A stretch of 64,000 nucleotides of DNA from Morchella semilibera (taxonomy: Eukaryota; Ascomycota; Pezizomycetes; Pezizales; Morchellaceae). The stretch lies in the NCBI GenBank assembly GCA_009192285.1, contig WBVU01000004.1, positions 2,936,001 to 3,000,000 on the forward strand. The letters run 5' to 3'. The notes under the pieces were generated by a model. The model searched no databases, had not been told where the DNA came from, and saw nothing but the letters and a program-made list of their open reading frames with translations. This document shows positions 1 through 49,073 of this stretch, piece after piece (position 1 is the first letter of the stretch; each line of letters begins with the position of its first letter). Made by a program: the position numbers and the translations under genes.

Positions 1-196
1 GTATCTCTTGATATTTGGGCAGCAGTAAGTCCTGTCTTATGGAGGGTAATGACAGCTTGTCTCTTGTCATATCTTGAAAGCTCCCTTTTGGGGGGGGTGG
101 TTGTGGCTTCATGGTGTTGCGCAATGGTTGCGGGGGGGTGGGTGTTGCGGGCGTTGACACGGACAAAAAACGGCGGAAATTAGTTGAGCGCGACTG
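1..196 (-). mobile_element. Tc1/mariner element, terminal part, cut by window edge
   Basis: Reading the minus strand inward from 196, the end has the Tc1-like form CAGTCGCGCTCAACTAATTT. It is followed further in by the start of a helix-turn-helix transposase domain; residues LSRYDKRQAVITLHKTGL are readable at about 35-88. The element sits at a TA (197-198) inside an LTR-A copy, as expected of this superfamily, and LTR-A resumes directly as CATAGGAATC. An eight-G run (90-97) puts the nearest upstream ATG (on the minus strand, near 112) out of frame with the domain, so the gene may be frameshifted or start elsewhere. The rest of the element lies outside the window. Confidence 0.7.
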
Positions 197-475
197 TACA
201 TAGGAATCTACTCCTATTCTCAAGCCATAGCTCCCCGTACCTCAAGATTCTTTCCTCTAAAAGAGGAAAGCTATAGTACCTCTCATCGTTCTCGTTGAGG
301 TGCATCCGGTCCTCACCTTCTCTGCCCTGCGCTCTTGTGCCTTAGCTCTTACCTTTGCCTTCGTCGGTGCCTGTGCTTGGGCCTGCCCGGCACTGTTCCT
401 GTCTTCGTCAGTCTCCTCGAATCCTTCTGCGTCATCATTGTCATCTTCTACTTTGCGTCGGGTTACTCCGTCACA
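197..475 (+). repeat. LTR-A, 3' half, cut by the Tc1 element
   Basis: This matches the second half of the LTR-A consensus seen whole at 27406-28038 and ends in CCGTCACA. Its 5' half would lie left of the Tc1/mariner insertion. Confidence 0.8.
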
Positions 476-519
476 GATATTCTGGTATGATGGAAAACAA
501 TAAATTATGAGTTAAAAAA
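476..519 (+). repeat. Possible 3' end of the poly-A retroposon family
   Basis: The stretch ends AATTATGAGTT followed by eight A. The retroposon at 30167-30898 ends AATTATGAGTT followed by sixteen A. Only this short tail is shared, so the assignment is tentative. The DNA from 520 to 642 shows nothing recognisable. Confidence 0.3.
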
Positions 520-647
520 AAGTTTACTCTAGAATATGTATTCCTGTAGCACAGGATTTAGACTCGCACTTAAGGTATTAATAAATACTATGATTGACTT
601 GTTGCTTGAATCCTGTTGTCCGAAAATACTCCGGAGTTCTGTATTCT

Positions 648-1276
648 TGTAACGGAGTGATTCGACGCAAAGAAGAAGATGACTATGATGACGCAGAAGG
701 ACTGGAGGAGCACAGTCTACTCGACGAGGGTACCGACAAAGACAGAGGCAATACCGGCCAGTCACAAGCACAGGTACCGGCAAAGGTAAAGGCAAGGGCA
801 AGGGCACAAGAGCACAGAGCAGAAAAGGTGAGGGCCGGATGGACCTCAACGAGAACGATGAGAGGTACTATGGTTTTCCTCATTAGAGGACAGGATTTTG
901 GGTACGAGAGGCTATGACTTGAGAATAGGAGTAAATTCCTATGTACTGAGATAACAGGAAGATGAAACAGAGAGAAAAGAAAGAAAGAACTAAAGAAAAC
1001 ATCTATCCCCGTTATTTAACACTTTCCCTCCTCCAGACCGCTATGACTCATACATCAGTTCATAGAAACCCACAGAAACCCGTCGCATCCACACCTCATA
1101 TTTCTCCCCACCATCTTCGCTATTTACCTTACAAATCCATCACGCCATCGAACCTCCTAGAACCCAATGACGACAACCTCCTTTAGCATACCCCCTCCTC
1201 ACTTAACCATTCCTAAACAATGACAACAGCGCTTTGACTACCGAACCCTCGGGACCGATGCCAAGACGCCGGGACA
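648..1276 (-). repeat. Solo LTR-A
   Basis: A complete 629-bp LTR read on the minus strand, from TGTAACGG (648) to CCGGGACA (1276). The 5-bp target duplication ATTCT is exact (643-647 and 1277-1281), so this is an independent solo LTR. Confidence 0.9.
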
Positions 1277-1329
1277 ATTCTTTGCCTTAGTGATTTATTA
1301 TAACTGTAAAATATAAGCAAACAAGATGG

Positions 1330-1666
1330 GTAAAAAGTCCTTTGTCTATTTTCATTATAGAGCTGGGCGGGACGAGAATGGAATAAGCCTAAGTACACAA
1401 CCGAAGTAGAGTGGAATAATGCAAGGCAAAGGACATGGTAAATGAAAACACGAGGACTATAGACGAGGCAGGGGCTAGGAATATTCTCCTGTCTCCCGAG
1501 GGACAGTAGAAACATCTTGGCAATAACTAAGAGTGCTAAAGTATATATTGACTAAGAGTACAAGAAGGTTGCGTGAAGAAGAAAAGAGAGAAAAAGAAGT
1601 CCTACAAGCGAGAAAGAGAGCTCATTATATATAGTCTCAATACTCCTCCACTGACTCATCTCACAG
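1330..1666 (-). repeat. Degraded LTR-C-like fragment
   Basis: The stretch resembles LTR-C (28764-29265) in the same orientation. It has a run similar to GGTTGCGTGAAGAAGAAAAG, then a TATATATAG-like box and GACTCAT. It is interrupted by the LTR-A copy at 1667-2292, and about 35 bases of its 5' end (CATGACTAATC and following) appear beyond that at 2293-2328. Confidence 0.5.
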
Positions 1667-2292
1667 TATGACGGAGGAACCTGACGTAAAGTAGAAGATG
1701 ACAATGATGCAGAAGGACTCGAGGAGCACATCCAGCACAACGAGAAAATCAACGAAAACAGAAACAACACTGAGCAGGCACGAGTACAGTCACCGGTGAA
1801 GGCAAAGACAAAGGCAGAGGCAAAAAGGCGCAGAGCAGGGAAGGTGAGGACCGGATGGACCTCAACGAGAACGATGACAGGTACTATAGATTTCCTCTAA
1901 ATAGGATAGAATCTTGAATGCGAGGGCTTATAGCTTGAAGATAGGAGTATATTCCTATGTACCGAGATAATAGGAAGGAGAAACAGAGAGAAAAGAAAGA
2001 AAGAACTAAAGAAAACATCTATCCCCGTTATTTAATACTTCCCTCCTCCAGTCCGCTATGACTCACCCATCAGCTTATAGAAACCCATAGAAACCTATCA
2101 CAACTACAACTCGTATTCCTCCCCACCATCTCTTCTATTTTTATTACAAATCCATCACGCCATCGAACCTCCTAGAACTCAATGACGACACTGTCTCTTT
2201 AGCACACTCCTTCCTCACTTAGCATTACTTTAACAATCACAACAGCACTTCGACTACCGAACCCTCTGGAGCGATGCCAAGATGCCGGGACA
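1667..2292 (-). repeat. LTR-A copy inside an LTR-C-like fragment
   Basis: The copy runs from TATGACGG to CCGGGACA. The flanks (CACAG and GAAAG) do not form a clear duplication, so one side has probably been lost. Confidence 0.75.
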
Positions 2293-2328
2293 GAAAGCCA
2301 TGACTAATCTTTTTTCCTGCAATATTGC

Positions 2329-2466
2329 TGTGATGGAGTAACCGAGACGCAACATTACAAATAACAATAATGTCGTAGAATGACTCGAGGATCACAGCCA
2401 GAGGCAGTAGGGACACCGAGTAGGTATAAGAATAGGCACCGTCGAGGGCAAAGAGAAGGACAGACT
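2329..2466 (-). repeat. Diverged LTR-A fragment
   Basis: The TGTGATGGAGTAACCGAGAC start and the AGGATCACAGCCAGAG stretch match LTR-A on the minus strand. It is cut by the two adjoining MITEs. Confidence 0.5.
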
Positions 2467-2573
2467 CATCAGCAAGATTTCACAAGTCTCAGGGGGTTAT
2501 TTGGATCTCAGGGGATTCAGAAGACTGTCAGAAGTCTCAGGAGACTCCAGCTACAAATGGTTAAGCTTGCTGA
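2467..2573 (+). mobile_element. CATCAGCAA MITE, short type
   Basis: It begins CATCAGCAAGATTTCAC, ends AAGCTTGCTGA, and carries repeated CTCAGGAGACT units. It abuts a second copy directly, sharing the sequence CTGACATCAG at the junction. Confidence 0.8.
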
Positions 2574-2710
2574 CATCAGCAAGACTTCGTTTGTCTCCTG
2601 ATATCTCCTGAGCCTCAGGAGACTCAAAAAATATGCAGGAGTCTCAAGAGACTCTCAGGAGACCCAGGAGACTGTTGGGAGACCACAGTCACAAGTTGAG
2701 TTTGCTGATG
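2574..2710 (+). mobile_element. CATCAGCAA MITE, 137-bp type
   Basis: It runs from CATCAGCAAGACTTCG to GAGTTTGCTGATG and is exactly 137 bp. It lies head-to-tail behind a short-type copy, so no separate duplication can be read. Confidence 0.85.
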
Positions 2711-2726
2711 GATAGAAGCGGAAAGG

Positions 2727-2936
2727 TGTAACAGGGTAACCGGGAGGCCAGGTAGCGGAAGACAATGATGATGCAGAACGACTCAAGGAGCATAGCCTGA
2801 ACAATGAGAACACTGACGAAGACGAAGAAAACACCGGGCAGGCATAAGCACAGGCACCAGTGAGGGCAAAGGCAAGAGCAAAGGCAAAAGGGCACATGAC
2901 AGAGGAAGTAGTAAGAACCGGATGGATGTTCCGGCG
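2727..2936 (-). repeat. LTR-A fragment
   Basis: It begins TGTAACAGGGTAACCGGG and continues through the LTR-A segment with ACACCGGGCAGGCATAAGC. It is truncated where the next, plus-oriented LTR-A begins. Confidence 0.6.
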
Positions 2937-3315
2937 TTCTGGCATCGGTCCCGAGTTTTCGGTAGTCGAAGCACTGTCGTGGTTGTTTTAGTAATGTTAA
3001 GCGAGGAGAAGGTATGCTGAGGAGGGGGTATCGTCATTGGGTTTTAGGAGGTTAGATGGCGTGATGGATTGGTAATGTAAATAGGGAAGATGGTGGGAAG
3101 GAATACGAGCTGTGGTAGCGATGGGTTTCCATAGAGTTCTATGAACGACAGTGTGAGTAATAGCGGACTGGTGGAAGAGGTGTGTTAAATAACGGGGATA
3201 AAAGTTTTCCTTAGTTCTTTCTTTCTTTTCCCTCTGTCTCGTCTTCCTGTTATTTCGGTACATAGGGATCTACTCCTATCTCTAAGCCATAGCTTCTCGT
3301 ACCTAAAACTCCCTC
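2937..3315 (+). repeat. LTR-A that received the Plavaka transposon (left part)
   Basis: It begins TGTTCCGGCGTTCTGGCATC and runs to the insertion point of the 11.3-kb transposon. LTR-A sequence resumes at 14641 (CCTCTACGAGGAAGTCC) and is cut again at 14676. Base pairs TC at 3314-3315 are repeated at 14641-14642. Confidence 0.75.
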
Positions 3316-3382
3316 CATCAGCAAGCTTGCAGTTGTCTCTGGGCGCATAACCCTCCGCCCTGGCGCAAACTTTGTGGTTACC

Positions 3383-3508
3383 CTGCGCCAGGTGCCACCC
3401 TGGGAATCACTCTGCGCCAGGCGTTATCCCGTGAATTATTCTGCGCCAGGCGTCATTTTCTGGGATATTCTGCGCCAGGCGCCATCCTCTGAATTATTCT
3501 GCGCCAGG
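3383..3508 (+). repeat. Left subterminal tandem array, 29-bp period
   Basis: CTGCGCCAGG occurs at 3383, 3412, 3441, 3470 and 3499, exactly 29 bp apart each time, with partly conserved spacers (GAATTATT, GGGATATT). An inverted CCCTGGCGC lies just outside at about 3358. In CACTA transposons such arrays are where the element's own protein binds. That role here is inferred. Confidence 0.85.
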
Positions 3509-3640
3509 CGCCCTCTTCTTTTTCTCCATTCACGCTAGGAGATTTCCCGTGTCCCATACGGCACCTGGCGTTCCAGGAGATTTGGCGATAGCTCCTTTCA
3601 CTATCGCGAGTCCCTACGAAGTTGTAGGTAGCCTATATAT

Positions 3641-6600
3641 CTAACTAAATTCATTCCATGTCCGCAGATCTATTCTAGTATTCACAAGCCAGTTTCCCCT
3701 GTCTATCTCAAATAAATGTGCCATCCCTAAAATACACCGTATATTCACTACCAAAATTTGGTTACTACTTTTTCTAGAGGCTTTAAGAAGACCATGAGAG
3801 CTATCGGGAATCCCTAGGTCCTTGGCCTCCAAGAGTTCGATCGCGCATAGCCGGTGCGCCCGTCCCCTATTATCTCGTAGCTTAAATAAAGCCTCCAGGC
3901 GTCCTGGTAGCCTTGCCCCGAACGCTCCCCATTGATCTCGAGTCCCCACCGTTACCCATGTCCAATCTCTCCTCAGTGATCCTTTTCTAAATGCTGCATT
4001 TCCCGTGCAGCGCAGGTTATGAATTTCGTATGCATCTGGTCTTTGAAAAATTGGAACTGGAACCTGGAGGCAGGTAAATCGTTCAACTCGGAGCTCGCCA
4101 AGGTTTTCAAGGCTTCCGCCAAAGCTCTCTGAACACCCCGCATCCTCCGCATATTCTCTTATCATGCGATAAAATCTTATTCTACTCATCTTGAGTTCAT
4201 CTGCAATATCGCATAGGCTTTCTAGCCTGGTAGAGCGGTTGCAAAGCCTTTTTAAGGGCAACTCGGAGTTGATTATAGGCCGTTCATTCGGTGCTCTCTT
4301 GCGGTCTTCTATCTTAAAAATATCAAGTAATTCCCGCAAGTTCTCACGATGCTCTCATAGGCTCTCGTTGCGGTTCTTAGAAGATCCGTCAGCTTCCACG
4401 ATATCCTTGAGGTTCAGTATCCGTATTTCTAGTGCCAATCGTCTTCCGCCGTAATCAAGAATTTGGGTCGCCGCATCAACTTTGTTTGAAGCGGCGTATG
4501 CTTCTTTGATTTGGTGTACGTGGGCCAGTTCGCTGATATCCGTAGAGAACATAGGAATATTCCCGAATCGCTCCACATGCTCTCGGTAATGTGATAATTG
4601 ATGCAATTTGATGAAGTTGAAATGAGATTTCTCGCGGATCTCGCGGACCTCTTCTAAGCCACAGTCAATCCTCTGAAAGCCCTCCTGCCGGAGAGCCCGT
4701 GTTCGATTCTTTGCATCCTTCTTAGTTTGCTTGTAGGCTCGAAATTCTAAAAAGATATCCTTATACCTATGGAAGTCCTTGAGATAACCCTCCAAATATT
4801 CAAGTGTACTCTTGGTATGATTCCCGTATTGAGCCATCAGGTGAAAGTCAATCAGTGCCCGAACGCATTTCAAAGCCTTTCCGAAGTCAGCTCTGACAGA
4901 GCTCCCTGGATTTCTCAGAGCCACCGCCAAAGCTCCCAGAACTATACGTCCTAGGTTTCGCATCTCTTTCCCCTGCCATTGCGTGGTTGCCCTATAAGGC
5001 TTGTTCGGTACTGGCAAGCCGAGGATAAGGCCCAATCTTTGACCATGCTATATCGAACGCGTCGAGACGCCCGTGTTTTTTTGAGAAATCCTTGAACCTA
5101 TTCCATCATATGCTTTAACATTCCAAGGTAGATGTTGTGCAATAGATCCGGTTTGTTCAAGTCGTACACCTTGTATCTCGGCATACCCCATAAAGCATTG
5201 AAAAGGGTCTTCAAAGACCTCGATACAAGGTATTCTACTGGTGATGTATTCATGGAGTTCTCATTAAACTGCCGTACCATCTTCTGGTAGGTCTCTTGAT
5301 CACTCATAGAGCTCTGCCGATAGTTTCCAAGGTTCTTATACTCCACCTCACATCTTGAGCAGGCGAAATTGGTGATGTTTTGCAACGAGGCATGCTCAGG
5401 TTGGTCCGCGATCCACCCAAACAGTACAGGAAAACATAGCCGTTCATATCCATCCGCGCAGGATATCAACTCGCCCTCCTCGCCACTACTTTTCAGGCTT
5501 TTGAAGATATCTTTGAGAGCGTTGTGCAGAGCCATCTGCGATTCCTGATGCAAAGCTGCATTCGCACTCGTATTTGAATTGAGCTTATAGGGCACTGGTA
5601 ATAGCGCTAGGAGTACTAACGAGTGCCCAGAGACTTTCATTCTCACAGAGGAATTGCTATTCCTAATTGTGAGATAGATTGACCATGCCTTTTTATCACC
5701 ACTAAAGTTCCTAAGGTGAGTGCCACCCGAGGCACTGATTACCGGAACTAACGTTGAACCCTCAGTGAGAGAATTCTTTTTGAGATCAGTCATGACTTTT
5801 CTGACTCTAACGAAACCTCCTAAAGCTCTCAGAAAGCTTCCCCTCACCTGTGTTTTCCACTACCAGTCCCCTGTATGTATTTCGCCGTAAATTCTCTCTC
5901 CCTTCTCGTTGTACTCCATTGACGGTGCAAATATAAGAGACTCCTTGAAGGCCCATTGTCCAAGAAGGAATCGAATAATTGTCATAGGGTCGCGATAGTA
6001 GTATGGTATGTTTTTCCCTCCTATAACAACCTCCGCATGGTTCCATGTTGACCTCCCTAGGCAATCGTTCATTTCCTCCATTTTTCGTATAAAACCTCGC
6101 CCATTTCTATAGGAGCTATGGCGATGGTCTCCGGGGGCATGTAGAAAGAAGCTATCGATACTTTCTTGTGATGCTTTGGACAAAATAAAGTACCGCGCCA
6201 TCCGGAATTCATACGATGAGTTGAAAGGTTGCCACGGATTGCCGAGAAGCCGTTGTACGCTTTTCTGATAGCCCTCAGAGCGATATAGAGCCTCCCCAGC
6301 ACCTTCATAGACCGTGGTGGATGCATCGCGAGTAATTCTCAACTCCTCCTCACAATCCTCCCTATCGTCTACAAAGTAAGACTCTGATTCTAGGTCTGAA
6401 TCTCCAGCAGCTTGTTGAGAGAAGTCAGAATATGTAGATGACCCGTCCTCGCAACTAGCATCATCCAGATCAAAGCCATCTGAAACCTTGTGAGACTCCT
6501 GTAGTCGTTTGTGATTCTCTTGCAAAAGATCGCATTGATTTGTGAACCATCCATCCGCTTCGTTAAGGTGATTATTCCGTAGGTGCTTCTCAAAGTTCGC

Positions 6601-6645
6601 TGAGGAGCTGTATTGCTTGCTGCAAAAAGGACAGGAGGACTTCAT
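3641..6645 (-). pseudogene. Plavaka-type transposase, decayed
   Basis: The gene starts at 6645 with a C2H2 zinc finger (C-x2-C-x12-H-x4-H) in its first 26 residues. It continues through NIPYYYRDPMTIIRFLLG and YGEIHTGDW, then THLRNFSGDKKAW and LVLLALLPVPYK, then PYRATTQWQGKEMRNLGR, and ends WLVNTRIDLRTWNEF. This order of motifs is that of fungal Plavaka transposases. A probable intron follows WKTQ (donor GTGAGG near 5845). Three in-frame stops are visible: TAG where the second W of the WW motif is expected (just after HTGDW), TAG after HMME near 5098, and TGA at about 4350. All are explainable as TGG to TAG or CGA to TGA. At least two frame changes lie between 5035 and 5098. This copy cannot make a full protein. 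Confidence 0.75.
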
Positions 6646-7428
6646 TAGGTGTCGCGATAGCTCCCATCGCTCTCGGAGGTGTCAAAATTACTACTGCCAA
6701 GCCTGTGGATTACTAATACTTGTGAGGGTGTATTGGAGGGCACACAACCTCTTGCCAAACAAACTTTCTAGCAACGTCATATATTCACGTTGAAAACTAA
6801 CCAACATATGCTTTCAAATCAAACTCAACATCTATCGCACATATCGGCCAAACCTTCTAGGGATTCACCACTACTCCAAAAGGTTTCACGAGTACCCTCG
6901 AAATCGTGGCTCAAAATCGTGGGCAATGCCGAGAAATCCGTATCTTTTGATACCCAAATGACTACATCTGTACTTGAAAACGAGATCAGAACAGCTAACG
7001 ATTCGAAGAAAAGCCATCATGCCAACACCAAAACGGACTCGAATACCAACACTCATACTAATCTACATCATTTAGTAACTTGCCCAAAACCGTCGAAACA
7101 CACCTGAGCAATCAATGATTCTGGCTCTGTGCGTTCTGGCGAAGACTGTGGAAGCTTTCGAAAGATCCTCTCATAGCTCTTAATGACTAATTTGATTTCG
7201 TTTGAGTGTTGGAAGAAGAGGTATAAGAACCTCTTCTTCCACCCTTGGGAGACCTTTCTTCACCATCCCCATTACTCTTCACAACCTCGCCAGGCATTGA
7301 GCTGGTGCGTTCTACCTATATTACGTTAATCATTCTTGTTCGTTCAGCCTTTTCAATTTCATTTCAACTTGATATCATCCACTTCGACACTTTCAACTTG
7401 ATACCTCCCCAGAATTTCCAGTTGAAAG
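6646..7428. promoter_or_regulatory. Divergent intergenic region between transposase and second transposon gene
   Basis: About 780 bp separate the two divergent start codons. The motif TCGCGATAGCTCCC (6652-6665) sits a few bases upstream of the transposase ATG, and related AGCTATCG motifs recur elsewhere in the element. No convincing reading frame lies here. Shared promoter function is inferred from position only. Confidence 0.4.
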
Positions 7429-10358
7429 ATGCCTCCCAACGCTACTAAGAGTACCCCTGGGAAGGTAGTATATAAACACCACATGGTTGTTCCCTAATCA
7501 CTATACATTAGTTTCTAACATACCTCCAGTCCGGTGGCAAGTCGAAAGGCCCCTCCCATCGTACTATCATGGCTCCGCCTCCTGTACCCCGCCTTCCGCT
7601 AAGGCGTCTTCGGAACAGAGTTGTTGGATAATATCGGTCGATGTCGGAAGTAGAATGATGGATTAGGAAGGAACTTGGGTAGTAGAATGTAAGCGCTAGG
7701 AGGAATTGGGCAGTAACAGATAGAATTGGGGTTATTGGGAATAGTATGGGTGGTACGGGAGTATAGTAGTTTCTATGGGTTTCTATGGTATGAGTCATTG
7801 GTGCGGGGGATAATTGTATATATAGTGTTTGTTCTTTCCTATGTTTCTGCCTCTCTAGGCAGCGTCTTCTTTCTGTTAGCAATACATTACTTTGGCCTCG
7901 GCCCTCCTGTCTTTGCATCATCCCTGAATCTGAACCTGAACCTGAACCTGTCTCGCCTCGGGTATCTCCTGAGCCGACCCTGTCTCCGTCCTCGTCCCTG
8001 GATCCACTCCGCTTAGCCCTTGACCCGACCCTGCCCCGTTAGACGTACTCACGATACCTTACAAAGCACTGCCAAAAGCCCTAGAGTAGAGATCCCAACC
8101 CCCCGAAAGCGTCAGCGCCAACCAGTCCCTGAATCTGAAGACGATATTGCCACAAGACCCCGTCATTCGAACCCACAAGCTCTTGATAGCCCTCCCCAAA
8201 GCTCTCCAAGATTGTTCGCAACCCCCCGAAAACGTGGGTGCCAACCAGTTCTTGATTCCGAAGACGAGATTGCCACACGACCCCATCGCTCGAACCTGCA
8301 GGCTCCTGATAGTCCTGACATCACTCCCAGAAGCCCTGAAAGATCTCGACCAACCCCTCGAAAGCGTCTGCACCAGCCTATCCCCGAAGCTGAAGAGGAA
8401 GAGTTGACTATCCTCTCACATAGAGTAGGAATTCCCTGGAGTTACGACGGTCCACCACCAGACCTCACCCTTAAACAGGCGCTGACACCCACGAAGACTG
8501 CTCCCGCGCCACCCAAGGCTTCGCAAGCACCCAAGGCCCCCCCAGTTTGGAAGAAGGCAACAGCAGCAGCAGATATCGCATTAGCTAAAGCTTATCCAAG
8601 CACTCCAGAGACTATCACATCTCCCAAAGCCCCAGAAACAACTTCCAGAACCACAGCAAAAACTTCCAAAACCACCCCAGCATCAGCAACACGGACCGCT
8701 GTCGCAGGCCCAAGCATTCCAAAAGATACCTCCAAAACCACATCAGCATCAGCAACAAGGACTGCTGTCGCAGGCCCAAGCACTCCAAAAGTCACCTCCA
8801 AAGCTCCAAGAGCAACAGCAACAGCACCAACCGCCCGACAAGATCTGCGGTCTGGGCCATCCTCTACTACTAATTCTCAGCCTGCTAGTACACCCCCGAG
8901 AGCCATCCACAAAGCTCCCAGAGCTATCGCGATATTCAAGAGCGCACATCAAAACGAAGATAGAGACAAGCACAATCATCCTGAGGACGGAGACGAAAAC
9001 GAAGACGAAGACGAGGACGAAGACGAGGACGAAGACGAGGACGGTGACGGAGACGACGAAGACGAACCTCGCCACGCCTCACAAGAACGTCGTCAGAGAC
9101 AGAAAAAAAAAAGGCTTTCAAGGCAAGGTGGTCAAAGGAGGTTGTTTCGATGGACGCAAGCACTGCCAAGGTGACTTTGGGATTGGCCGCCTCCCCAAAG
9201 GGTTACAACAGATTGAGGAAAGACCTCGCCGTAGAGATGACAAGAACAAGATGGGTCAATAAAAGAACTAGCGGGCTTACTCATTTTAATGAGTTGGTGG
9301 CATGGCTTCTTGAACAGAGGCCTCTGGTAGGTTTGGCCACGATCATGGGAGGCCAGAGGAATAGCGCCAGGGCCAAGATACAGGAAGCACTTACCTGGCT
9401 AGTGGTCAATGTCAGTCGGAAGGAAAAGGTCTCTAAGGGCTTGGGGAATCGGGAATTCACTGAGATTGACGCTCACGACCCCGAGCTGGACGCTGACGAT
9501 TCGGATGATCTGCCACAAGGGCTCTCAGGGCACTCGGCAAAGCGCCAAAAGCTATCGCCACAATCTGAGCGGACTAATATCTGGGTCACCGTTGTCGACC
9601 CTGACCGTTTTAATGAATACGATCCTGATGCTAGGAGACGGGAATACACTTGGACCCATGCACATAATGAGCCTAGTTACGCTGCCGTGATGACTCGGAG
9701 GAATATCCAAGAGCTTGGAAGAGTCGCCTGCAAGCATATCCCCATTGGTCGGTTGGTCCGGGAATTCTATCGCTCGATAAACCAACCAGCCGAACTGGAA
9801 GAGGAGCCAGCCTGGGTCCGCATAATGGACACTGAGGAAGTAGAAGCCTGGATGCTCGGAAGTCTGGCGAAACCTCTCCGTGTTCTGGCCATACTTCACA
9901 GAGTAGGCCAGACTGAACCCCATGGTGGTGATGAAACCCCTCCTAGAAGACTATACCAGCCATACACAACTAGTGACGATTATGGACACTTTGATTATCC
10001 GGCTGAAGACTCTGAGTTTGAGGGCGGAGTTAGAATGACCTCCATTGGAACCAGGCTTATCATGCCGAAGAGTGATGCGTTGTTCCAGGTAAACCTCCAC
10101 AAGATCTCGTCACGCCGGAATAGGCAGCAATCAGCCCTTGAGCTCCTCAATCAGAAGTACCTTAATAAGTACCCTGTGGGTGTTGGTATTGCGGACCCTA
10201 ACTTCAGAATCAGGCGTGTCTGGGGGGCTGCGGAGATCGCTCAGAAGCGTGAGGAGGACAGAGCCAAAAACCCGCGGCACCGCGCAACGGGAAAGCTGAA
10301 GACTCCCTTGGTTCCCCTCCCCGGAGGTAGTGGTGATGGTGGTGGTTATAGTGTTTAG
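7429..10358 (+). pseudogene. Transposon gene 2, unknown acidic protein, interrupted
   Basis: Exon 1 (7429-7464) starts MPPNATKSTPGK. An intron with GTAGTA donor, CTAAC branch point and CAG acceptor follows (7465-7529). Exon 2 starts at 7530 and is split after codon HR by the LTR-E insertion (7565-8043). The reading frame resumes cleanly at 8049 (THDTLQSTAK) once the duplicated CGTAC is discounted. The protein has a basic proline/threonine-rich part with repeated PTPRKR motifs, an Asp/Glu run (about 8990-9066), then about 400 residues that look globular (9150-10358). The two halves are in different frames, joined at a run of ten A (9103-9112). On the other side the frame reads sensibly as KKKAFKARWSKEV. 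I recognise no family. It may belong to the transposition machinery or be cargo. Confidence 0.55.
7565..8043 (+). repeat. Solo LTR-E inserted in transposon gene 2
   Basis: A 479-bp LTR starting TATCATGGCTCC and ending CCCCGTTAGA. The target duplication CGTAC is exact (7560-7564, 8044-8048). It contains TGAGTCA (7791-7797), TATATATAG (7817-7825), a pyrimidine-rich stretch and a short run of repeated CTGAAC hexamers. Confidence 0.85.
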
Positions 10359-10528
10359 GCCTATTTGGCGAGAGTTTGGACAGGTTTTGCGAGATTCTAG
10401 TGAGTTATTCGCATTTTAGCATGATTAATCTATTAACTGACCCACAGATTTTTTTCTTCCACTATTTTTGTTAGGGTATACAGAGATTTCGAAAGGTTTG
10501 GTGATAGCTTTAAGAGCTCTCAACATGG

Positions 10529-11162
10529 TGTCCCGGCGTCTTGGCATTTGTCCTGACAGTTCGGTAGGCGATGTACGGTTGTGGTTGTTAGGGAAATGTT
10601 AAGCGAGAGCGGGGAGTGCGAGGTGGAGGCTGTCGTCATTAGGTTCTGGGAGGTTCGATGGCGTGATGGATTGGTAATGTAGAATAGCGGAGATGGTGGG
10701 GAGGATTACGGGGTGTGGTAGTAACGGGTTTCTATGAGGTTCTATGAGCGGAGGTGTGAGTCATATTGAACTAGTGGAGGAGGTGTGTTAAATAGCCGAG
10801 ATAGATGTTTTCCTTAGTTCTTTCTTTCTTTTCTCTCTGTCTCGTCTTCCTGTTATCTCGGTACATAGGAATCTACTCCTATTTCTAAAGCCATAGCCTC
10901 TCGTACCAAAGACTCGATCCTCTGACAAGAGGAAACTCATAGTACCCCTCATCATTCTCGTTGAGGTCCCTTCGGTCCTCACTCTCCCTGCTCTGTGCTC
11001 TTGTGCCCTTGCTCTTGCCTTTGTCTTCGCCGGTGCCTGTGCTTGTGCCTGCCCGGCGTTGTCCCTGTCTTCATCGGCCCCCTCGTCGAGTACACTGTGC
11101 TCCTCGAGTTCCTCTTCGTCATCATTGTCATCTTCTTCTTTGCGTCGGGTTACTCCGTCACA
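10529..11162 (+). repeat. Solo LTR-A inside the Plavaka transposon
   Basis: The copy is 634 bp, from TGTCCCGGCG to CCGTCACA. The flanks are CATGG and CTTGG, a target duplication with one difference. It lies between genes 2 and 3 and breaks neither. Confidence 0.85.
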
Positions 11163-11609
11163 CTTGGTCGGTAACAGCTTTGTGTTCGGTATTATTTGTT
11201 GTTTCCTTGGTCCGCGCATGTTAACCACGTAGCATTTTGGGTGATTACTATTATTAGAGAGTGTTGATTTGAGGCTTGGTATTATTAGAGAGCGTTGATT
11301 TATTCTTAAGTTGGGAGCATTTATTTGATACTGATAGGTAGCGAATATCAAAGTGATTTGAAGCCTTCTTGAATGCTACTAGTGATCTCGAAAGCTATCG
11401 CGAAGCCTCCTGAAAACATCATTATTGCGAGTGATTACCGATGAGACTATTTTAACCCAAATTGGTGTGCCCAGCCCATCTAATTAGCCAATTTTAGTCT
11501 GTATGTGGTTAACTTTAGATTACATGAAAATTTTCACGCCAAGCACTTCTTTTGATTAGAAATCAGGACAGCCTTCAAAACCCTCAGGAGAGCCCACACA
11601 GGCATCAAG
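11163..11609 (+). promoter_or_regulatory. Upstream region of transposon gene 3
   Basis: This 447-bp stretch lies between the nested LTR-A and the gene 3 start codon. It holds GAAAGCTATCGCGAAG (11390-11405), a copy of the motif recurring across the element, and an imperfect direct repeat of TTGGTATTATTAGAGAG type. No gene is visible. Confidence 0.35.
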
Positions 11610-13991
11610 ATGCCTCAAGCAAAGCGTCCCTCAACGTCGGAAACGACCAAATCCACTCCAAGCCTCCCTGACCCTGAAGACCACAATGGGGAAACTACAG
11701 AGCAAGATTCGAACGAGGGTGACGCTGTACCCGAGAAAGCTCCCAACACTCTCACGAGAGTCAGCACAACCACAAAGAAAGCTCAAGGAAAGCGGCTGCC
11801 CCAAAGGAGTACTTCTTCTCGTAAACGCTTTAGGCCCCCAAATGAAATCTCATCGGATGAGGACCTACCTGACCCCCCAGAGCGCCGCTCGACCAAAGCG
11901 TCGACCAAAGCCCAGGGAATCCCCAAATCATCTCTTAAAGGCCATTCTCGACAGAACAAAAAATCTAGAAAATCCGGTGTTCGAGTAGAGTTTAACCTCG
12001 AAAGATACCCGTCCGAGGGAGAGCAAGAGGTTCAAGAGCGCCTTACAACCAGTTCTTCAGAATATGATGATGACCTAGACACTCCAGTACTACGCGAACA
12101 AAGCGTGAGGCATCAGTTCGCAGACAAAAGACCCCCGGGTACGCAGGTCGGAGATAAGAGACCCCCGGGTACGCAAGTGGCCGGAAAGAGACCTCCGAGT
12201 AGCCAGGTAACGACTGCCAGAGGTGTGGCGAGTGCTCGGAGAAAGCCCACCGGTGCGGTTGCTGAGGCAATTGCGTCGTCAGAAGTGGAGATTAACGTTA
12301 TTCAAGTAATTAACCCCAGTCTTTTTTTTTGATAAGTGACTGAGATGAAAGAAATTTTAGAAGGGAAATCGTACATCGTCGAAGCCAACGAAAAATCCAT
12401 CAAGCGCTCCACAAAGACCGCCGATGACTCCTGTGGACCCAGTGATGGCTCCTATTGCTACCCATTACTCTTCATCTTTTCGTATCCCCCCCCCTTCCTC
12501 TTCTAGGTTAGGAGAATCGTCACCAACACCAATGGCATTGAATCCTGGATTCATGCCACCAAGCGATAATAGCTCCTGGGGCGGTTCTCTGAGCTTTGGG
12601 ATTAGCTCTCTAATGCCTCGAACAATGGAGCCATCCCCACTAGGGAGACCACCTCAGAATAACGATACAGCGAACCCTAACTATCTGTCGCCTTCACCTT
12701 CTTTACCTCCGCCTCATGATGACGACAGGTATTCTTACCAAACTCCTGAAAGCTCTCATCAAGCCTCTGCTGGTCAGATACCTCGTACACCTGCTCCAAA
12801 CTCTAGGAGTGCGAGTGTGCTTCCTTTGGAAGCTCAAAGGATTGAGAAAAAGTGTAGTATATTGATAGGTGATCACACACTGTTTGAAGAGCCGTTTCCA
12901 AGCCCTGCGAGACTCTCGGTATTGGTGGTGAATATGTGGGTACAAGCAAGTTGTAGTTTGGGAATCAGCGCAGAAATCGACGAGGTTATTATAAAACAGG
13001 TGAGTGTCCCCGAAGATCCCATGATAGCTTCTAGGGAACTGAGGAGGCCCCACAGGTTAGAAGCTTGCACTCCCGAGTGCGGTCACACTTGATGAGCGCA
13101 GTGAAGGAACGGCTAGCAGACTCCAGGATTTACGGAATTGCAAAAATTCGCACACAAGTGGAGAGGGCCGAAAGAGTCGACTATCTTTTGAGGAATGATC
13201 GGTTCATCAGCCATCCAGCGCATTATGAGGTATATCCAAATTCTTGGGAACCACGACGATAGCTCTAACAAGCCTTAGGCATGCAGCTGCAAATTCTTAG
13301 CTCCGGAGATCATCGAGGTTTTATATTATAGGCTTTTTGATGGGGCTAGGAGGCGAGGAGCCCGTGAACCAGATCCCCTCGACCGAATAAACCATACATT
13401 GATATGCCTGATAGCAACCGCCATTTGGCATGGGATTCGCGCATGGTCCACGGGGAATTATGTGATACCGCAAAATTTCCAGACTCAAAATGATAGTGTA
13501 GTGAGTAAGTATTTCTCATAGCTCCTGGAGGTATGGCGGGTTCTAACTAAGGTGTTACAAATGCTCTAGAAACCTTCACGAGGATGGTAAACACTTGGAG
13601 GTCACGTAGTCGTTTCAACCAGGAAGGAATCTTGAAATTGATAAAGGACAATCTTCGAGACAAGGTAAGAGCCCGATCTTAATTACCGACTATAATAACC
13701 CAAACTGATAATTTGTAGATACAAGAGAAGAAGGGGGTTACGGTCGAGGATATTCCGGTTGAGGGTCTTAGCGAGGACGATGATGCTCTGGCGGAAGCTC
13801 TGGAAGCTCTCAGGAGTGCTCGGGGAGATCAAGGCCAGAAATCTAAACCCGGCCAAACTAACCTTCCACCACACGGGCTTGAATATGGTACGGATGGAGA
13901 GCCGGACCTAATGGAAAAAGAGGAGGAGATAGAGGAAATAGTGGAGGAGGAGGGTGGAGAAATAACAGAAGATGAGAGCTATAATAACTAA
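11610..13991 (+). CDS. Transposon gene 3, 700-residue protein with DUF6532-like C-terminal half
   Basis: The hand-built model joins exons 11610-12305, 12361-12999, 13056-13229, 13279-13504, 13570-13664 and 13719-13991. All five introns are GT-AG and 49-65 bp; three show a clear CTAAC or CTGAC-type branch point. The exons sum to 2103 bp, giving 700 residues with no internal stop. The N-terminal third is Ser/Thr/Pro/Lys-rich and holds three 10-residue repeats of the DKRPPGTQV type (about 12118-12207). From exon 3 on it looks folded: RVDYLLRNDRF, then LYYRLFDGARRRGA, HTLICLIATAIWHGIRAW, STGNYV and NTWRSRSRF. This resembles the fungal DUF6532 family as I remember it, which is common near transposons. 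It ends in a Glu-rich tail. Function is unknown. It is complete while the transposase next door has decayed. Confidence 0.7.
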
Positions 13992-14263
13992 GGGAATAAC
14001 AAGATCTCTAAGAGGTATGGGGAAGTCTGTAGAGACAGTAATATGTATTATTATAATTGTTATATAGTGGCGAGACCATAAGTGAATATATCCGTACCAT
14101 TCGAGGAATAGAAGAGATCTCTGAAAGCTATCGTGAAGTGAATAAATACATGAAAAGCAGCAGGTAGCACCAGGAGCTAGATGTACGCGCCAGGGACACT
14201 CAGGCGCGATGAATGATAAAAAGTATGTTACCAGGGGAGATAGGGGCGGAAAAGTAAAGCCCA

Positions 14264-14400
14264 CATCAGCAAACTCAACTTGTGACTGGAGTCTCCCAAC
14301 AGTCTCCCAAGTCTCCTGAGAGTCTCCTGAGACTCCTGGATATTTTTTGAGTCTCCTGAGGCTCAGGAGATATCAGGAGACAAATGAAGTCTTGCTGATG
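14264..14400 (-). mobile_element. CATCAGCAA MITE, 137 bp, TSD CA
   Basis: It starts CATCAGCAAACTCAAC and ends GTCTTGCTGATG, flanked by CA on both sides (14262-14263, 14401-14402). It is nested near the right end of the Plavaka transposon. Confidence 0.9.
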
Positions 14401-14630
14401 CAGGCGGAGCCAGGCGGAGCCAGGCGCCAAAGGTTTCCGCCAGGGGCGTTCCTGAGAGAAAACCTAACTCCTGGCGCTAACCGAGGTTGTGATATGGTTC
14501 AGGGCGCTCAGGGCGCTGAAAGCCCCGCCCGGAGCGCCCTGAGGTTTGGCGAGGTTCTCAGGAGAATGAGTTTTTATCCCGTGCGCCCTCAGCGCCCTGA
14601 ACGCCTGGAGCGCCCCATGAAATCTACAGG
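14401..14630. repeat. Right subterminal GC-rich repeats of the Plavaka transposon
   Basis: Repeated GGCGGAGCCA units are followed by many GGCGC/GCGCC-containing motifs such as CTCCTGGCGC and GAGCGCCC in both orientations. They are less regular than the left array but share its GCGCCAGG/CCTGGCGC core. Confidence 0.65.
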
Positions 14631-14640
14631 TTTGCTGAAG

Positions 14641-14676
14641 TCCTCTACGAGGAAGTCCATGGTATCTCTCATCGTT
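14641..14676 (+). repeat. LTR-A remainder right of the Plavaka transposon
   Basis: TCCTCTACGAGGAAGTCC and the following CTCTCATCGTT match LTR-A and continue the copy interrupted at 3315. The next LTR-A starts at 14677. Confidence 0.65.
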
Positions 14677-15309
14677 TGTCCCGGCGTCTTGGCATTTGTC
14701 CCGACAGTTCGGTAGGCGATGTACGGTTATGATTATTAAGATAATGTTAAGCGAGAGCGGGGAGTGCGAGGTGGAGGCTGTCGTCATTGAGTTCTGGGAG
14801 GTTCGATGGCGTGATGGATTGGTAATGTAGAATAGCAGAGATGGTGGGGAGGATTACGGGGTGTGGTACCGACGGGTTTCTATGAGGTTCTATGAGCGAA
14901 AGTGTGAGTCATAGCGGACTAGTGGAGGAGGTGTGTTAAATAGCGGGGATAGATGTTTTCCTTAGTTCTTTCTTTCTTTTCTCTCTGTCTCGTCTTCCTG
15001 TTCTCCCAGTACATAGGAACCCACTCCTATCTCTAGGCCATAGCCTCTGGTACCAAAGACTCGATCCTCTGACAAGAGGAAACCCATAGTACCTCTCATC
15101 GTTCTCGTTGAGGTCCATTCGGTCCTCACTCTCCCTGCTCTGTGCTCTTGTGCCCTTACTCTTGCCTTTGCCTTCGCTGGTGCCTGTGCTTGTGCCTGCC
15201 CGGTGTTGCCCCTGTTTTCATCAGCCCCCTCGTCGAGTAGACTGTGCTTCTCGAGTTCCTCTGCGTCATCATTGTCATCTTCTTCTTCGCCTCAGGTTAC
15301 TCCGTCACA
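14677..15309 (+). repeat. LTR-A copy
   Basis: The copy is 633 bp, from TGTCCCGGCG to CCGTCACA. Left flank TCGTT and right flank ATGGA do not match, so it probably marks an exchange between LTR copies. The right flank (15310-15389) is a piece of a minus-oriented LTR-A. Confidence 0.8.
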
Positions 15310-15389
15310 ATGGACCTCAACGAAAACAATGAGAAATACTATGGGTTTACTCGTTACTAAGGACAAAGTCCCAGGTCAAAGGGGCTACG
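15310..15389 (-). repeat. Short LTR-A fragment
   Basis: ATGGACCTCAACGAAAACAA and the following bases match the middle of LTR-A on the minus strand. It is wedged between two plus-oriented copies. Confidence 0.55.
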
Positions 15390-16021
15390 TGTCCCAGCGT
15401 CTTGGCATCGATTCTGTGGGTTTAGTAGTCGAAGTACAGTTGTAATTGTTTAGGTATTGCTAAGCAAAGAAGGGGTGTGCTGAGGAGAGGGTATCGTCAG
15501 TAGATTCTAGAAGGTTCGATACTGTGATGGATTTGTAATGCAAATAACAAAGATGGCGGGGAGGAATACGAGGTAAAGCTGCTATGGATTTCTATGGGTT
15601 TCTGTAAGTGAACGTGTGAGTCATATTGGATTGGTGGAGGAGAAGTGTTAAATAGCGGGGATAGATGTTTTCCTTAGTTCTTTCTTTCTTTTCTCTCTGT
15701 CTCGTCTTCCTGTTATCTCAGTACATAGGAATGCACTCCTATTCTCAAGCCATAGTTCTCCGCCTACAAGATCTCGTCCTCGTTAAGAGGAAAACTTATA
15801 GCACTTCTCATTGTTCTCGTTGAGGTCCATCCGGCCCTTACTCCCTGTGCTCTGTGACCTTGTGCCTTTACCCTTGCCTTTGCCTTTGCAGGTGCCTATA
15901 CTTGTGCCTGCCCGGCGTTATTTCTGTCTTCGTCAGTCTCCTGATCCCACTGACTGTGTTTCTCGACTTCTTCTGCGTCATCCTTGTCATCTTCTACTTT
16001 ATGTCAGGTTACTCATTCACA
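15390..16021 (+). repeat. LTR-A copy
   Basis: The copy is 632 bp, from TGTCCCAGCG to a diverged end CATTCACA. No target duplication is visible. Confidence 0.75.
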
Positions 16022-16262
16022 TTCTAGATCGTTGTTGCTTCATTTGATAGTTATCACAGCGTACCACGGACTTCGCAGAAAAGGATGATATTCGAGAATG
16101 GGTTTTCTGATCGGGGTGTTTTCTTTTGCGTTCTTGGAGTTTCTATAGGTTTCCATTACACAATGTTATGAGTCATAACTGTACAGGGATTAAGAGGGGT
16201 ATATATATGTTGCTACGGATCTTTCCTTTGTCCTGTTCTTCTTCTTTCTTTTCCTACATGTT

Positions 16263-16390
16263 CATCAGCAAGTTTTACCACTTGTGACTGGAGTCTCCTG
16301 ACTCTCCTGACAGTCTCCTGAGTCTCCTGAGACCCTTGTAATCTCCTGAGACCCCTGTAATCTCCTGAGACTTGTAAAATCTTGCTGATG
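16263..16390 (-). mobile_element. CATCAGCAA MITE, 128 bp, TSD TT
   Basis: It starts CATCAGCAAGTTTTACC and ends AATCTTGCTGATG. TT flanks it on both sides (16261-16262, 16391-16392). Confidence 0.85.
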
Positions 16391-16645
16391 TTCTTCCTGT
16401 TACCAACCCTACGGTTTAGTTCTGTTTGTCTCTTGTCTCTAGTTCTGAATAAACGACGTCATCCTCATAGTTCCGCCAAGATTCCCTGAGGTCTTCCATA
16501 GTATCTTGCCTCGTATTCATTCTTGCTTCGCTTCGTCTCGCCTCGACCATAGTCCATGACCGTAGTTCGTATCATCTATTGGTATCTTCGCTTACACAAC
16601 TTTGTCCGAGAGGCTCTTTGGGCTCTCTGTCCTACCACCCTACTC

Positions 16646-16782
16646 CATCAGCAAACTCAACTTATGACTACAGTCTCCCAACAGTCTCCCGGGTCTCCTG
16701 AAAGTCTCCTGAGACCCCTGGATAACATTTGAGTCTCCTGAGGCTCAGGAGACATCAGGAGACAAATGAAGTCTTGCTGATG
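16646..16782 (-). mobile_element. CATCAGCAA MITE, 137 bp, TSD TC
   Basis: CATCAGCAAACTCAAC to GTCTTGCTGATG, with TC at 16644-16645 and 16783-16784. Confidence 0.9.
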
Positions 16783-16812
16783 TCCTTGGATAGATTCTCT
16801 CGCCCTCGTACC

Positions 16813-16949
16813 CATCAGCAAACTCAACTTATGATTGGAGTCTCCCAACAGTCTCCCGGGTCTCCTGAGAGTCTCCTGAGACCTCTGGATATTTTTTGAG
16901 TCTCCTGAGACTCAGGAGACATCAGGAGACAAATGAAGTCTTGCTGATG
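16813..16949 (-). mobile_element. CATCAGCAA MITE, 137 bp, TSD CC
   Basis: CATCAGCAAACTCAAC to GTCTTGCTGATG, with CC at 16811-16812 and 16950-16951. Confidence 0.9.
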
Positions 16950-17031: not shown

Positions 17032-18690
17032 GCAGGGTCATGGTATAGTGGATGGGGTTTTTGTTGCCATGCGAAATAATTAGAACTTTTGTCATCCTAC
17101 AATACCATTAATTCTGCTCTAACGAGCTCTAAATGGTAACTAAATATAAGTTTCCTCATCCTTTTCGGTTCAATTACTAGTTTTTTCGAAATTAAGTCTT
17201 TTTAGAATTGTGCTTTAATATTAATACTCAAATTAATACTCATAGAAATACTCGTACTTTTGCTAATATAGGCAGACAGTCAAGTAACTGATTGTAATGA
17301 AGAACGTTAAACATATGTACATATTATATCAAGAGTCTTCATTGTGAAATTCACATATGCTAGAAGTAGTGAATATAGTATTGGTTTAGTACTTGCTTTA
17401 GAGTCATTTTGAATATTTCTATAAGTAATATTTTTAGCACTAATACTACAGCATGGTTGTATAAACACTTAATTTTGAGAAAATTATTAATTGAACCCAA
17501 AAGGGTGGAAAAGATTGTGTTTGATGCCCAATTTAGCATAATTAAGCGTCTTTTGGGAGAGAATCATATATGAAGGAAAAGAGTTATCAAAAACTGTAAA
17601 TAAATTAGAGTGAAGGCTAGAACTTAGAGATATCACATTCTTCCTCTTCATTTCCATCTCCATCTCCATCTTCATACCTTCATCCCCACAACTTCATTTC
17701 TATACCTCTCCGCAGCTCTCCGCCCTTACTAATTATATATGAACTAATCAGTATAACAGTGAATGCAAGCAGCGGATCAAGTAGATATGTTAAGTAGGTA
17801 GGCAGGCAGAATTGCAGGTAGGTAGGCAGACACGTGAATCTGCAGTGAAGACTTAATCGTGAAATAAATAAAAATTTCACTCACGAAATTCATCAGCAAG
17901 ATTTTCTAAATCTCAGGAGATTGCAGGGGTCTCAGGAGACTCAGGAGACCGTCAGGAGACTCAAGAGACTCCAGTCACCAATGATAAAGCTTGCTGATGT
18001 TTATCTGTATATAATAAGCGTGAATATTGGCCTACCTGTGTATCGGGGTTTTTTATCGAATAAAAAAATTCTTATAAAGCTATTAAAATCATTTACTAAT
18101 ATGAGGATTAATCGAAACCTAGGTCAATAAGAGCCTATAGAAAAAAACATATTAAAAATCAAAAAAAGTCCTACAATAGAAATATTAATTGCTTAATATA
18201 GCTTTATATTCTTATGGGAACTATCACTAATGTGTATCCGAATCTTTCAGTGAATAAAATTAGTTTCATATTGGCATTATCATGTACCATAATTTTCAAG
18301 TTCAGCGAATTTAAAGTCCAATTAAGACTTTACCTAAATTATCAGTTATAAAATTATAAAGGCTTCAAGTCTAGTTGATATTTTTATATGATCAGATGGT
18401 AAAGTAATTAAGACTATAGATTAGATCTAGAGACAAAGTATCTGACAAGGAAAAGAGGAATATCATTAAGAAAATTGATCATCGACCACTGCCGACAGTC
18501 CGAACTTATTTTGGACACCCCCTTTGTCGAACCTCTCGTACTCTAGTATCCCTGCAGCCCTGAAAACAGGCGATTTTTGGGGCCCATAGTACGTCATAAG
18601 TACATGTATCTATCTACCTACTTACGCGAATGGGCCTTGGAGTTTCTCTCAAGCTCAATCCACCTTGTCCAAATCATCGTCACGTCAGGC
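17032..18690. other. AT-rich intergenic DNA
   Basis: This gene-free stretch is strongly AT-rich to about 18480 and contains one MITE (17891-17999). At 18500-18560 there is a sequence with the look of a Tc1-type end (CAGTCCGAACTTATTTTGG), but no partner end was found. The last 200 bp before the COA1 start codon should hold its promoter; no clear TATA box was seen. Confidence 0.5.
17891..17999 (+). mobile_element. CATCAGCAA MITE, 109-bp short type, TSD TT
   Basis: CATCAGCAAGATTTTC to AAAGCTTGCTGATG, with TT at 17889-17890 and 18000-18001. It lies in AT-rich DNA outside any LTR. Confidence 0.88.
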
Positions 18691-24596: not shown

Positions 24597-25005
24597 CAAC
24601 CAAGGCGTAACGTGACAGATGACAATAATGACGCAGAAGGGCACAGCCAGGAGCACATCAGCAAACTCAACTTATGACTGGAGTCTCCCAGCAGTCTCCT
24701 GTGTCTCCTGAGAGTCTCCTGAGACTCCTGGATATTTTTTAAGTCTCTTGAGGCTCAGGAGATATCAGGAGACAAATCAAGTCTTGTTGATGCAGCGAAG
24801 ACACCAAGCGGGCACAAGCACTGGCACAGGCTAAGGCAAGGGCAAGGGCACAGGCAAAAAAGACGCAGTGCCGAGCAGGGAAAGCGAAGATCAGGTAAGG
24901 CCCCGAGCGAGGATAAGAAAAAACTATAGAGTCACCTTCTATGAAGGCAAGGTTGAAGGCAAAATGCTGTGATTATGGATAGAATTAAATTCCTGTTTAC
25001 GGTTG
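24597..25005 (-). repeat. Diverged LTR-A fragment with nested MITE
   Basis: It starts TGTGACGGAGCAACC and shows the GACAATAATGACGCAGAAGG and CACCAAGCGGGCACAAGC stretches of LTR-A. It is truncated before the next copy at 25024. Confidence 0.6.
24656..24792 (-). mobile_element. CATCAGCAA MITE, 137 bp, TSD CA
   Basis: CATCAGCAAACTCAAC to GTCTTGTTGATG, with CA at 24654-24655 and 24793-24794. It is nested in an LTR-A fragment. Confidence 0.9.
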
Positions 25006-25597: not shown

Positions 25598-25734
25598 CAT
25601 CAGCAAACTCAACTTGTGATTGGAGTCTCCCAGCAGTCTCCCAGGCCTCCTGAGAGTCTCCTGAGACTCCTAGATATTTTTTGAGTCTCCTGAGGCTCAG
25701 GAGACATCAGGAGACAAATGAAGTCTTGCTGATA
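25598..25734 (-). mobile_element. CATCAGCAA MITE, 137 bp, no TSD
   Basis: CATCAGCAAACTCAAC to GTCTTGCTGATA. It forms the junction between LTR-E and LTR-A and its flanks differ, so sequence was lost around it. Confidence 0.8.
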
Positions 25735-25827
25735 TAATCTCAAGTCATAGTTCCTTGCATCCAAGATTTTGTACTCTTTAGAGGAGAACTTGTAGCACCT
25801 CTCATCGTACCCATTGAGTTCCATCCG

Positions 25828-25935
25828 CATCAGCAAACGCAACTTGTGACTGGAGTCTCCCAACAGTCTCCTGGGACTCCTGAGATTCTCCTGATACTCA
25901 GGAGACATCAGGAGACAAATGAAATATTGCTGATG
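25828..25935 (-). mobile_element. CATCAGCAA MITE, 108-bp variant, TSD CG
   Basis: CATCAGCAAACGCAACTTG to AATATTGCTGATG, with CG at 25826-25827 and 25936-25937. The LTR-A target CCATCCGGTCC is recovered when one CG is removed. Confidence 0.88.
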
Positions 25936-36385: not shown

Positions 36386-36600
36386 TTGATAATCTGATTT
36401 CTCCGTAAATGATTCACTCCAAAAGGACCCTTAATTGAGCCTGATTAGCATATGAATAGGCTCCAGATATTAGAGTTATCGCCCAATGAGGAAAAATTGA
36501 GGCTGATTCTACATCTACAGCTCATATCACGCTCTAATCAGACCCAAGTCTCAAAATCAGCCTGATATTTTTATACGGACCGGCGGTAATGTACCTACCC

Positions 36601-48889: not shown

Positions 48890-49073
48890 TGTCCTGGCAT
48901 CTTGGCATCTGTCCCGACAGTTCGGTAGGCGATGCATGGTTGTGGTTGTCAGGGTAATGTTAAGCGAGGGTGGGGAGCGCAAGGTGGAGGTTGTCGTCAT
49001 TGAGTTCTGGGAGGTTCGATGGCGTGATGGATTGGTAATGTAGAATAGCGGAGATGGTGGGGAGGATTACGAG

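Follow-up and report, generated by a model that had tools for sequence, protein, structure and literature searches.

The Plavaka transposons, reportedly named by Iyer et al. in 2014, are the closest described systems to the locus discussed here. Plavaka families have been reconstructed, among them PlavakaB, with CATCA..TGATG termini and target site duplications of 2–3 bp (Kojima, 2025, PMC12730594). Work on Marasmius oreades characterised the inverted ends of its KDZ and Plavaka elements and defined Plavaka by the same Pfam model as is used here; accessory genes or a sequence period are not known to be described there (PMC8290104). Giant repeats of the non-fungal protist Amoebidium carry many genes beside or flanked by a Plavaka transposase, but differ in forming clusters of up to 50 kb with intron-poor genes and many tyrosine recombinases (PMC11244446). 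In the En/Spm system, the subterminal repeats are bound by TNPA, which is required together with TNPD (PMC2613891). The VANC proteins of VANDAL elements, which bind non-coding parts rich in motifs, erase silent marks (PMC10398659). Here we describe a stretch of 64,000 nucleotides from the ascomycete Morchella semilibera (contig WBVU01000004.1, positions 2,936,001 to 3,000,000; hereafter, the window), which holds a decayed PlavakaB-type DNA transposon, end to end, at positions 3316–14640. Outside its nested long terminal repeats (LTRs) and subterminal ends, the element carries a purine/pyrimidine (R/Y) phase at the DNA level and a degenerate, dispersed motif. This period of about 10.5 bp and its motif are what is new; complete Plavaka ends are already in print (PMC8290104, PMC12730594), and the view implied by an earlier note on this DNA, that complete Plavaka elements are essentially unknown, is not supported.

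The element begins at 3316 with CATCAGCAAGCTTGC and ends in ...GGTTTGCTGAAG, the last base being 14640. The terminal inverted repeats (left, 3316–3337, forward strand; right, 14619–14640, reverse strand) are imperfect, matching at 16 of 22 positions, and are flanked by TC at 3314–3315 and 14641–14642, a duplication of the length described for PlavakaB. The left terminus is an exact CATCA, and the position of the right terminus is set by the TC duplication together with the continuity of the surrounding LTR. This LTR, LTR-A, runs on the forward strand from 2927 to 3315 and resumes beyond the element as a remnant at 14643–14675. Rejoined with a single TC, the flanks align across the junction to each of the five LTR-A copies that were compared, apart from a 3-base gap immediately to its right, so the interrupted target is real. 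Inside the left end, a 29-bp unit containing GCGCCAGGCG is repeated in tandem 4.5 times at 3383–3512 on the forward strand (Tandem Repeats Finder and counts), and the right subterminal region (14401–14620) is rich in GGCG/GCGCC. Counts of GCGCC/GGCGC are 11 in 3316–3615 and 9 in 14401–14640, against 9 in the whole of 3616–14140, and this high density at both termini provides an independent link between the two ends.

Better-matching inverted ends (18/22) at 14400, 16782 and 16949 belong to separate 137-bp miniature inverted-repeat transposable elements (MITEs) with 2-bp duplications of their own; position 14400 was considered as the right end and rejected, since this end is part of a MITE flanked by a separate CA duplication and shows no LTR continuity. 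The element (CATCA..TGAAG, 2-bp TC) shows neither the TGT..ACA termini of PlavakaA nor the 3-bp duplication and CAC..GTG ends of EnSpm/CACTA, and no Pfam match to the TET/JBP dioxygenase of TET+ Plavaka was obtained in the 10 pieces scanned or in spliced gene 3. PlavakaB identity and the boundaries 3316–14640 are close to certain. The boundaries, TC duplication, interrupted LTR-A and subterminal array proposed in the earlier note are all confirmed; its description of a whole 11.3-kb transposon holds for the ends only. The copy has both its ends but is not intact: neither the transposase gene nor gene 2 has an unbroken frame, and three later insertions account for about 1.25 kb of the span. The insertions are a solo LTR-B at 7565–8043 (forward; 5-bp duplication CGTAC; copies at 25367 and 35768 begin at the same base), a solo LTR-A at 10529–11162 (forward; duplication CATGG/CTTGG, 4/5 bases) and a CATCAGCAA MITE at 14264–14400 (CA duplication).

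The R/Y period of about 10.5 bp and the dispersed AGAGCT-type motif extend over 3541–14261, the nested LTRs excepted, and the period is weak in 9102–10358. R/Y autocorrelation shows maxima near 10–11, 21 and 31 bp, with minima between them, in both halves of the element. Mean power at 10–11 bp in 120-bp windows is 2.69 for the element (n = 157) and 1.18 for the rest (n = 692), with 40 mixed windows (1.52) set aside. The nested LTRs (1.27, n = 19) and Gypsy interiors (1.46, n = 115) contrast with the MITEs, which reach 5.01 outside the element (n = 38) and 3.70 for the nested copy (n = 4). The spectrum of the element stays near 1 except at about 9.5–11.5 bp, peaking at 10.5, and that of the MITEs peaks at 9.5–10. 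Period power is 2.74 for the element as against 1.67 for the best 9.4-kb span from 14700 onward. By base class, the power is 2.73 for R/Y, 1.00 for weak/strong and 0.99 for keto/amino; for AA/TT/TA it is 1.46 in the element and 1.44 in the host, and for AA alone 1.92 and 1.49. Estimates of the period range from 10.25 to 11 bp: one half gives 10.25, the other 10.75–11, long-lag fits 10.8 and 11.0, and the element overall 10.5. Both period and motif come from a single element in a single window and were noticed post hoc, then cross-validated; most of the computations ended LTR-B at 8041 and LTR-A at 11165 (true ends 8043 and 11162), and some non-coding segments were off by one base.

The period is present in coding and non-coding sequence. 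Within the element, each of the seven coding pieces has a power matched by no more than 3 of its 100 synonymous shuffles. For each of seven coding stretches elsewhere, 15 or more of the 100 match it, and none of these stretches goes beyond its shuffles. Even in the conserved transposase core the power is 3.05, compared with 2.07 in synonymous shuffles, none of 100 of which reach it. The 2.1 kb of non-coding element sequence has a power of 3.17, reached by none of 300 Markov sequences; four non-coding stretches taken singly give 26/200 for 10359–10528 (not significant), 4/200 for 11166–11609 and 0/200 for the other two. The exons and introns of gene 3 carry the period alike. Among ten other stretches only two are raised (1–2900, 3/100; 14643–16640, 2/100), both of them with MITEs.

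The motif has a comparable distribution. In a k-mer comparison, AGCTATCG occurs 9 times in 10.1 kb of the element and is absent from 52.3 kb outside; the 9.4-kb interior has 8 occurrences, whereas 200 dinucleotide shuffles average 0.21 and never exceed 2. A motif of width 30 trained on the transposase half (3540–7564) finds 26 sites (4.8/kb) in the half with genes 2 and 3, none in the nested insertions (1.25 kb) and 13 (0.25/kb) in 52.7 kb outside, and training in the reverse direction yields 18 sites in the transposase half (4.47/kb), 1 in the nested insertions and 25 outside (0.47/kb). These densities are for the strictest of three thresholds, and the enrichment shrinks at lower ones (e.g., 9.05 vs. 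1.94/kb at threshold 6, with 3 nested hits). The motif of the transposase half was found again in the other half by a first cross-validation, and the reverse direction picked up only a GAA-rich acidic run; 8961–9069 was then excluded and both directions were rerun. The joint motif consists of degenerate AGAGCT-like blocks spaced by about 10 bp, and outside the element the joint model scores 11 times, 5 of them in MITEs. When the motif was derived from the non-coding parts only, it found 27 coding sites (width 24, threshold 9) compared with a mean of 6.5 and a maximum of 11 in 60 synonymous shuffles, and in all nine settings none of the 60 reached the observed coding count. De novo motif excess in nine stretches of about 4 kb, two of them overlapping, is 38 and 44 for the element and −1 to 26 for the others. 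Models of width 14 also give raised densities in the host GDE1 gene (5.2 and 4.35/kb; 4.35 and 2.61/kb in the second run) and, in the second run, in 60686–62458 (3.38/kb), and an unconstrained expectation-maximisation search fell into very degenerate models. A hairpin reading of the palindrome-looking consensus was dropped because 28 single sites form 6.25 of 11 pairs, as against 6.16 at 400 random places (loops up to 6 only). Being common to both halves, the motif ties the transposase, gene 2 and gene 3 together.

The transposase gene lies on the reverse strand at 3641–6645, as traced from its PF18759 matches and the open-frame listing, with a probable intron near 5775–5846 placed by eye. Two adjoining pieces of one frame, separated by a stop, match PF18759 at 1.3e-46 (profile 101–322) and 2.8e-09 (profile 17–94), which bears out the Plavaka assignment that the earlier note had made from remembered motifs. 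The frames carrying the protein contain stops at 5862, 5100 and 4357, and the frame shifts once or twice within about 5090–4990, the second change being one that we take to lie near 5083. Because the profile runs on across it (94 to 101), the stop at 5862 is difficult to ascribe to an intron, although unrecognised introns could absorb some of the breaks. The breaks presumably hit conserved tryptophans, the first catalytic Asp seems to be missing, and the C-terminal part presumably resembles other Plavaka proteins. The start of the protein shows a weak C2H2 finger (0.0017, below cut-off). Of the C(2)C and H(3–4)H motifs that PlavakaB has between the second D and the last E, CSRC in the frame 5101–5859 is a candidate for the first, and no counterpart of the second was recognised. 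This copy is very likely inactive. The stops could stem from C-to-T or G-to-A changes. Among the single-base changes from consensus in 14 copies of the 137-bp MITE, 59 of 100 are of this kind, 10 of them on the single CpG of the consensus, and this CpG-focused excess points to methylation-driven decay, as expected for methylated DNA.

The two genes on the opposite strand announced by the earlier note, one of them with six exons and 700 open codons, are both found. Gene 2 (7429–10358, forward) is interrupted by the solo LTR-B, and its frame changes within 9048–9174. This interval includes a run of ten A at 9103–9112, and mutation, sequencing error or slippage could each explain the change; the stops are less readily sequencing errors. 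The only domain hint in gene 2 is PF24465 Tri-helical (E = 0.049, below cut-off), and an AlphaFold model of its C-terminal part (418 amino acids, no alignment) had a pLDDT (predicted local distance difference test score) of 31.6 and was not used. Gene 3 (11610–13991, forward) comprises six exons (11610–12305, 12361–12999, 13056–13229, 13279–13504, 13570–13664, 13719–13991) with GT..AG introns of 49–65 bp and encodes 700 amino acids without a stop. Residues 404–572 match DUF6532 (PF20149) at 2.4e-15, with 57.4 bits against a curated cut-off of 24 and profile positions 8–177 of 194. At the rate of the transposase, 3.6 breaks (five counted) or 2.9 (four counted) would be expected in gene 3 and none is seen (rough P 0.03–0.06); an unbroken gene 3 beside a broken transposase gives a weak hint of constraint. 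DUF6532 is listed alongside Plavaka in one genome survey (PMC8955403) and is absent from the main text of PMC12730594. Among open-licence papers, supplements aside, no report was found of a DUF6532 gene in a bounded Plavaka element, nor of the period.

Taken as a whole, the locus is probably explained by a once-autonomous PlavakaB cut-and-paste transposon of which the present copy has decayed. Its insertion into a Ty3-type LTR duplicated TC, and one MITE and two LTR retroelements, now solo LTRs, subsequently nested in it. A DDE-type transposase would have acted at the CATCA ends, and gene 2 and/or gene 3 may encode accessory DNA- or chromatin-binding factors with a role like that of TNPA or VANC. 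Such a factor, or the nucleosome, might read the phased sequence along the element and so help it to stay accessible or to be assembled for transposition. An accessory DNA-binding or anti-silencing role for either gene is a tentative proposal, drawn by analogy. It would be a more doubtful step to suppose that PlavakaB elements in general write a helical R/Y code along themselves, in part via synonymous codons, with an element-encoded accessory protein (DUF6532 or gene 2) or nucleosomes as its reader, so that the element stays accessible or resists silencing; this would be an element-wide, cis-acting code for anti-silencing or assembly.

The element shares with described PlavakaB a PF18759-type transposase, the CATCA left end and a 2-bp duplication, but differs in its DUF6532 gene and second gene, its TGAAG right end and its decay (PMC12730594). 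En/Spm, of a related transposase clade, also has subterminal repeat regions and more than one protein; its ends are CACTA and its duplication 3 bp, genes 2 and 3 have no shown homology to TNPA, and the signal here is element-wide (PMC2613891). With VANC the element may share the combination of an element-encoded factor and many short motifs, but VANDAL elements belong to another superfamily and their target motifs are tandem and non-coding, whereas here coding sequence is included (PMC10398659, PMC5735166).

The An/Tn clusters of Caenorhabditis elegans are said to follow the helical period. They are a DNA signal tied to silencing resistance, as may be the case here, but are A/T-based and non-coding, in contrast to the short-range R/Y signal without a strong/weak component of this element (PMC7725773).

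Several observations weigh against the proposed explanation. The period has no strong/weak component, and its phase is gone after about 35 bp (amplitude at 10.5 bp of 0.056 for lags 4–35 and 0.008 for lags 36–67), which is unlike a nucleosome track of 147 bp. In the C-terminal part of gene 2 the period is weak (1.68, though exceeding its shuffles), it is missing from the left subterminal array (0.66), and the Gypsy interiors are themselves slightly raised, an increase accounted for by their proteins. The right terminus departs from the TGATG of PlavakaB at one of five bases. No DNA-binding domain scored above the Pfam cut-off in gene 3 or in the pieces of gene 2 scanned, which lie downstream of the start of LTR-B, and searches of the PDB returned only unrelated weak matches (best E 0.056, 0.62 and 0.11), as did NCBIfam for the three pieces tried. 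Finally, a single copy is known here, and no relative was located in non-fungal collections: viral contigs scanned with a piece of each gene, and genome contigs and plasmids scanned with a transposase piece. The gene 3 query was the reading 12361–13092, which covers exon 2, some intron and only the start of the DUF6532 domain.

The phased sequence may instead be a nucleosome code, in which R/Y blocks of about 5 bases bend the DNA at each turn and the element phases its own nucleosomes without a binder of its own. This pattern resembles the published YRRRRRYYYYYR nucleosome motif (PMC3097165, PMC3691935), and the confinement of the signal to R/Y among the base classes suits it. However, the loss of phase beyond about 35 bp is at odds with such a code, and AA/TT/TA power is the same as in the host, though AA alone is somewhat up. 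We regard this possibility as unlikely.

Another view is that the period is a by-product, the interior having grown by slippage or duplication of units of about 10 bp that are now decayed tandem repeats with no function. It draws on the CATCAGCAA MITEs, which are made of TCTCCTGAG-type units of about 10 bp and have a strong period of 9.5–10. But the period crosses the conserved transposase core, where repeat expansion is unlikely, and the element peaks at 10.5 instead, so that this origin, too, seems doubtful. The window contains 30 occurrences of CATCAGCAA itself (0.53 expected), many of which are at the ends of separate short MITEs. Those with PlavakaB-like ends have a 2-bp duplication in 12 of 14 pairs (18 were listed, and 4 composites spanning two MITEs or the end of the element were dropped) and lengths of 108–137 bp. 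Internally they are built of units other than those in the subterminal regions of the 11.3-kb element, which suggests a second PlavakaB subfamily. Such MITEs are found at 2467–2710, 16263–16949, 17891–17999, 24656–24792, 25598–25935, 36196–36737, 38214–38350, 44751–44887, 46152–46288 and 53242–53378.

A further alternative concerns the genes: genes 2 and 3 could belong to the host, or to a separate element nested here, and lie between the ends only by chance. In favour of this, there is no second copy to demonstrate co-mobilisation, gene 3 has kept an open frame and the transposase has not, and one of the 21 inverted pairs in 6700–14300 (19 nt, 89%; 10503–10521 and 14114–14132) encloses both gene 3 and the nested LTR-A and has GT on the outer side of each arm. 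This 2-bp match has a chance of 1 in 16, and such pairs are to be expected because both arms are copies of the dispersed motif, about 50 of which score in the element. The best evidence that genes 2 and 3 have long been in the same element as the transposase is that motif and period are shared by both halves, the period running through the exons and introns of gene 3, and are absent from the nested LTRs; the subterminal composition also matches outside both genes. Chance enclosure is improbable. That genes 2 and 3 are integral to the element is likely, a shade less so than if the inverted pair around gene 3 did not exist. The remaining idea, that the period mirrors amphipathic helices of the encoded proteins, is highly improbable and already largely refuted: synonymous shuffles of the transposase pieces do retain some power (2.07–2.74), but few of them in any coding piece reach the observed value, and the non-coding parts are equally strong.

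Other elements of the window include copies of LTR-A in both orientations, with dense clusters at 1–3315, 14677–16021 and 48313–51516. Two Ty3-type Gypsy elements lie at 40829–43813, with integrase, Tf2-1-like and chromo domains, and at 51846–56231, flanked by LTR-A copies at 50278 and 56613. A Pogo/Tc5-type element occupies 58013–59659 (DDE_1, 1.4e-14), and a stop near 58511 divides its frame.

DUF6532 is a family without known function, so its placement in a bounded transposon matters: with both ends of the element fixed, it becomes possible to test whether the gene serves transposons as an accessory. The signal of helical phase makes a simple prediction that can be computed for other PlavakaB elements. 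If they show it above synonymous shuffles, a DNA-level code on transposons would become testable; otherwise, the signal would be a quirk of one family.

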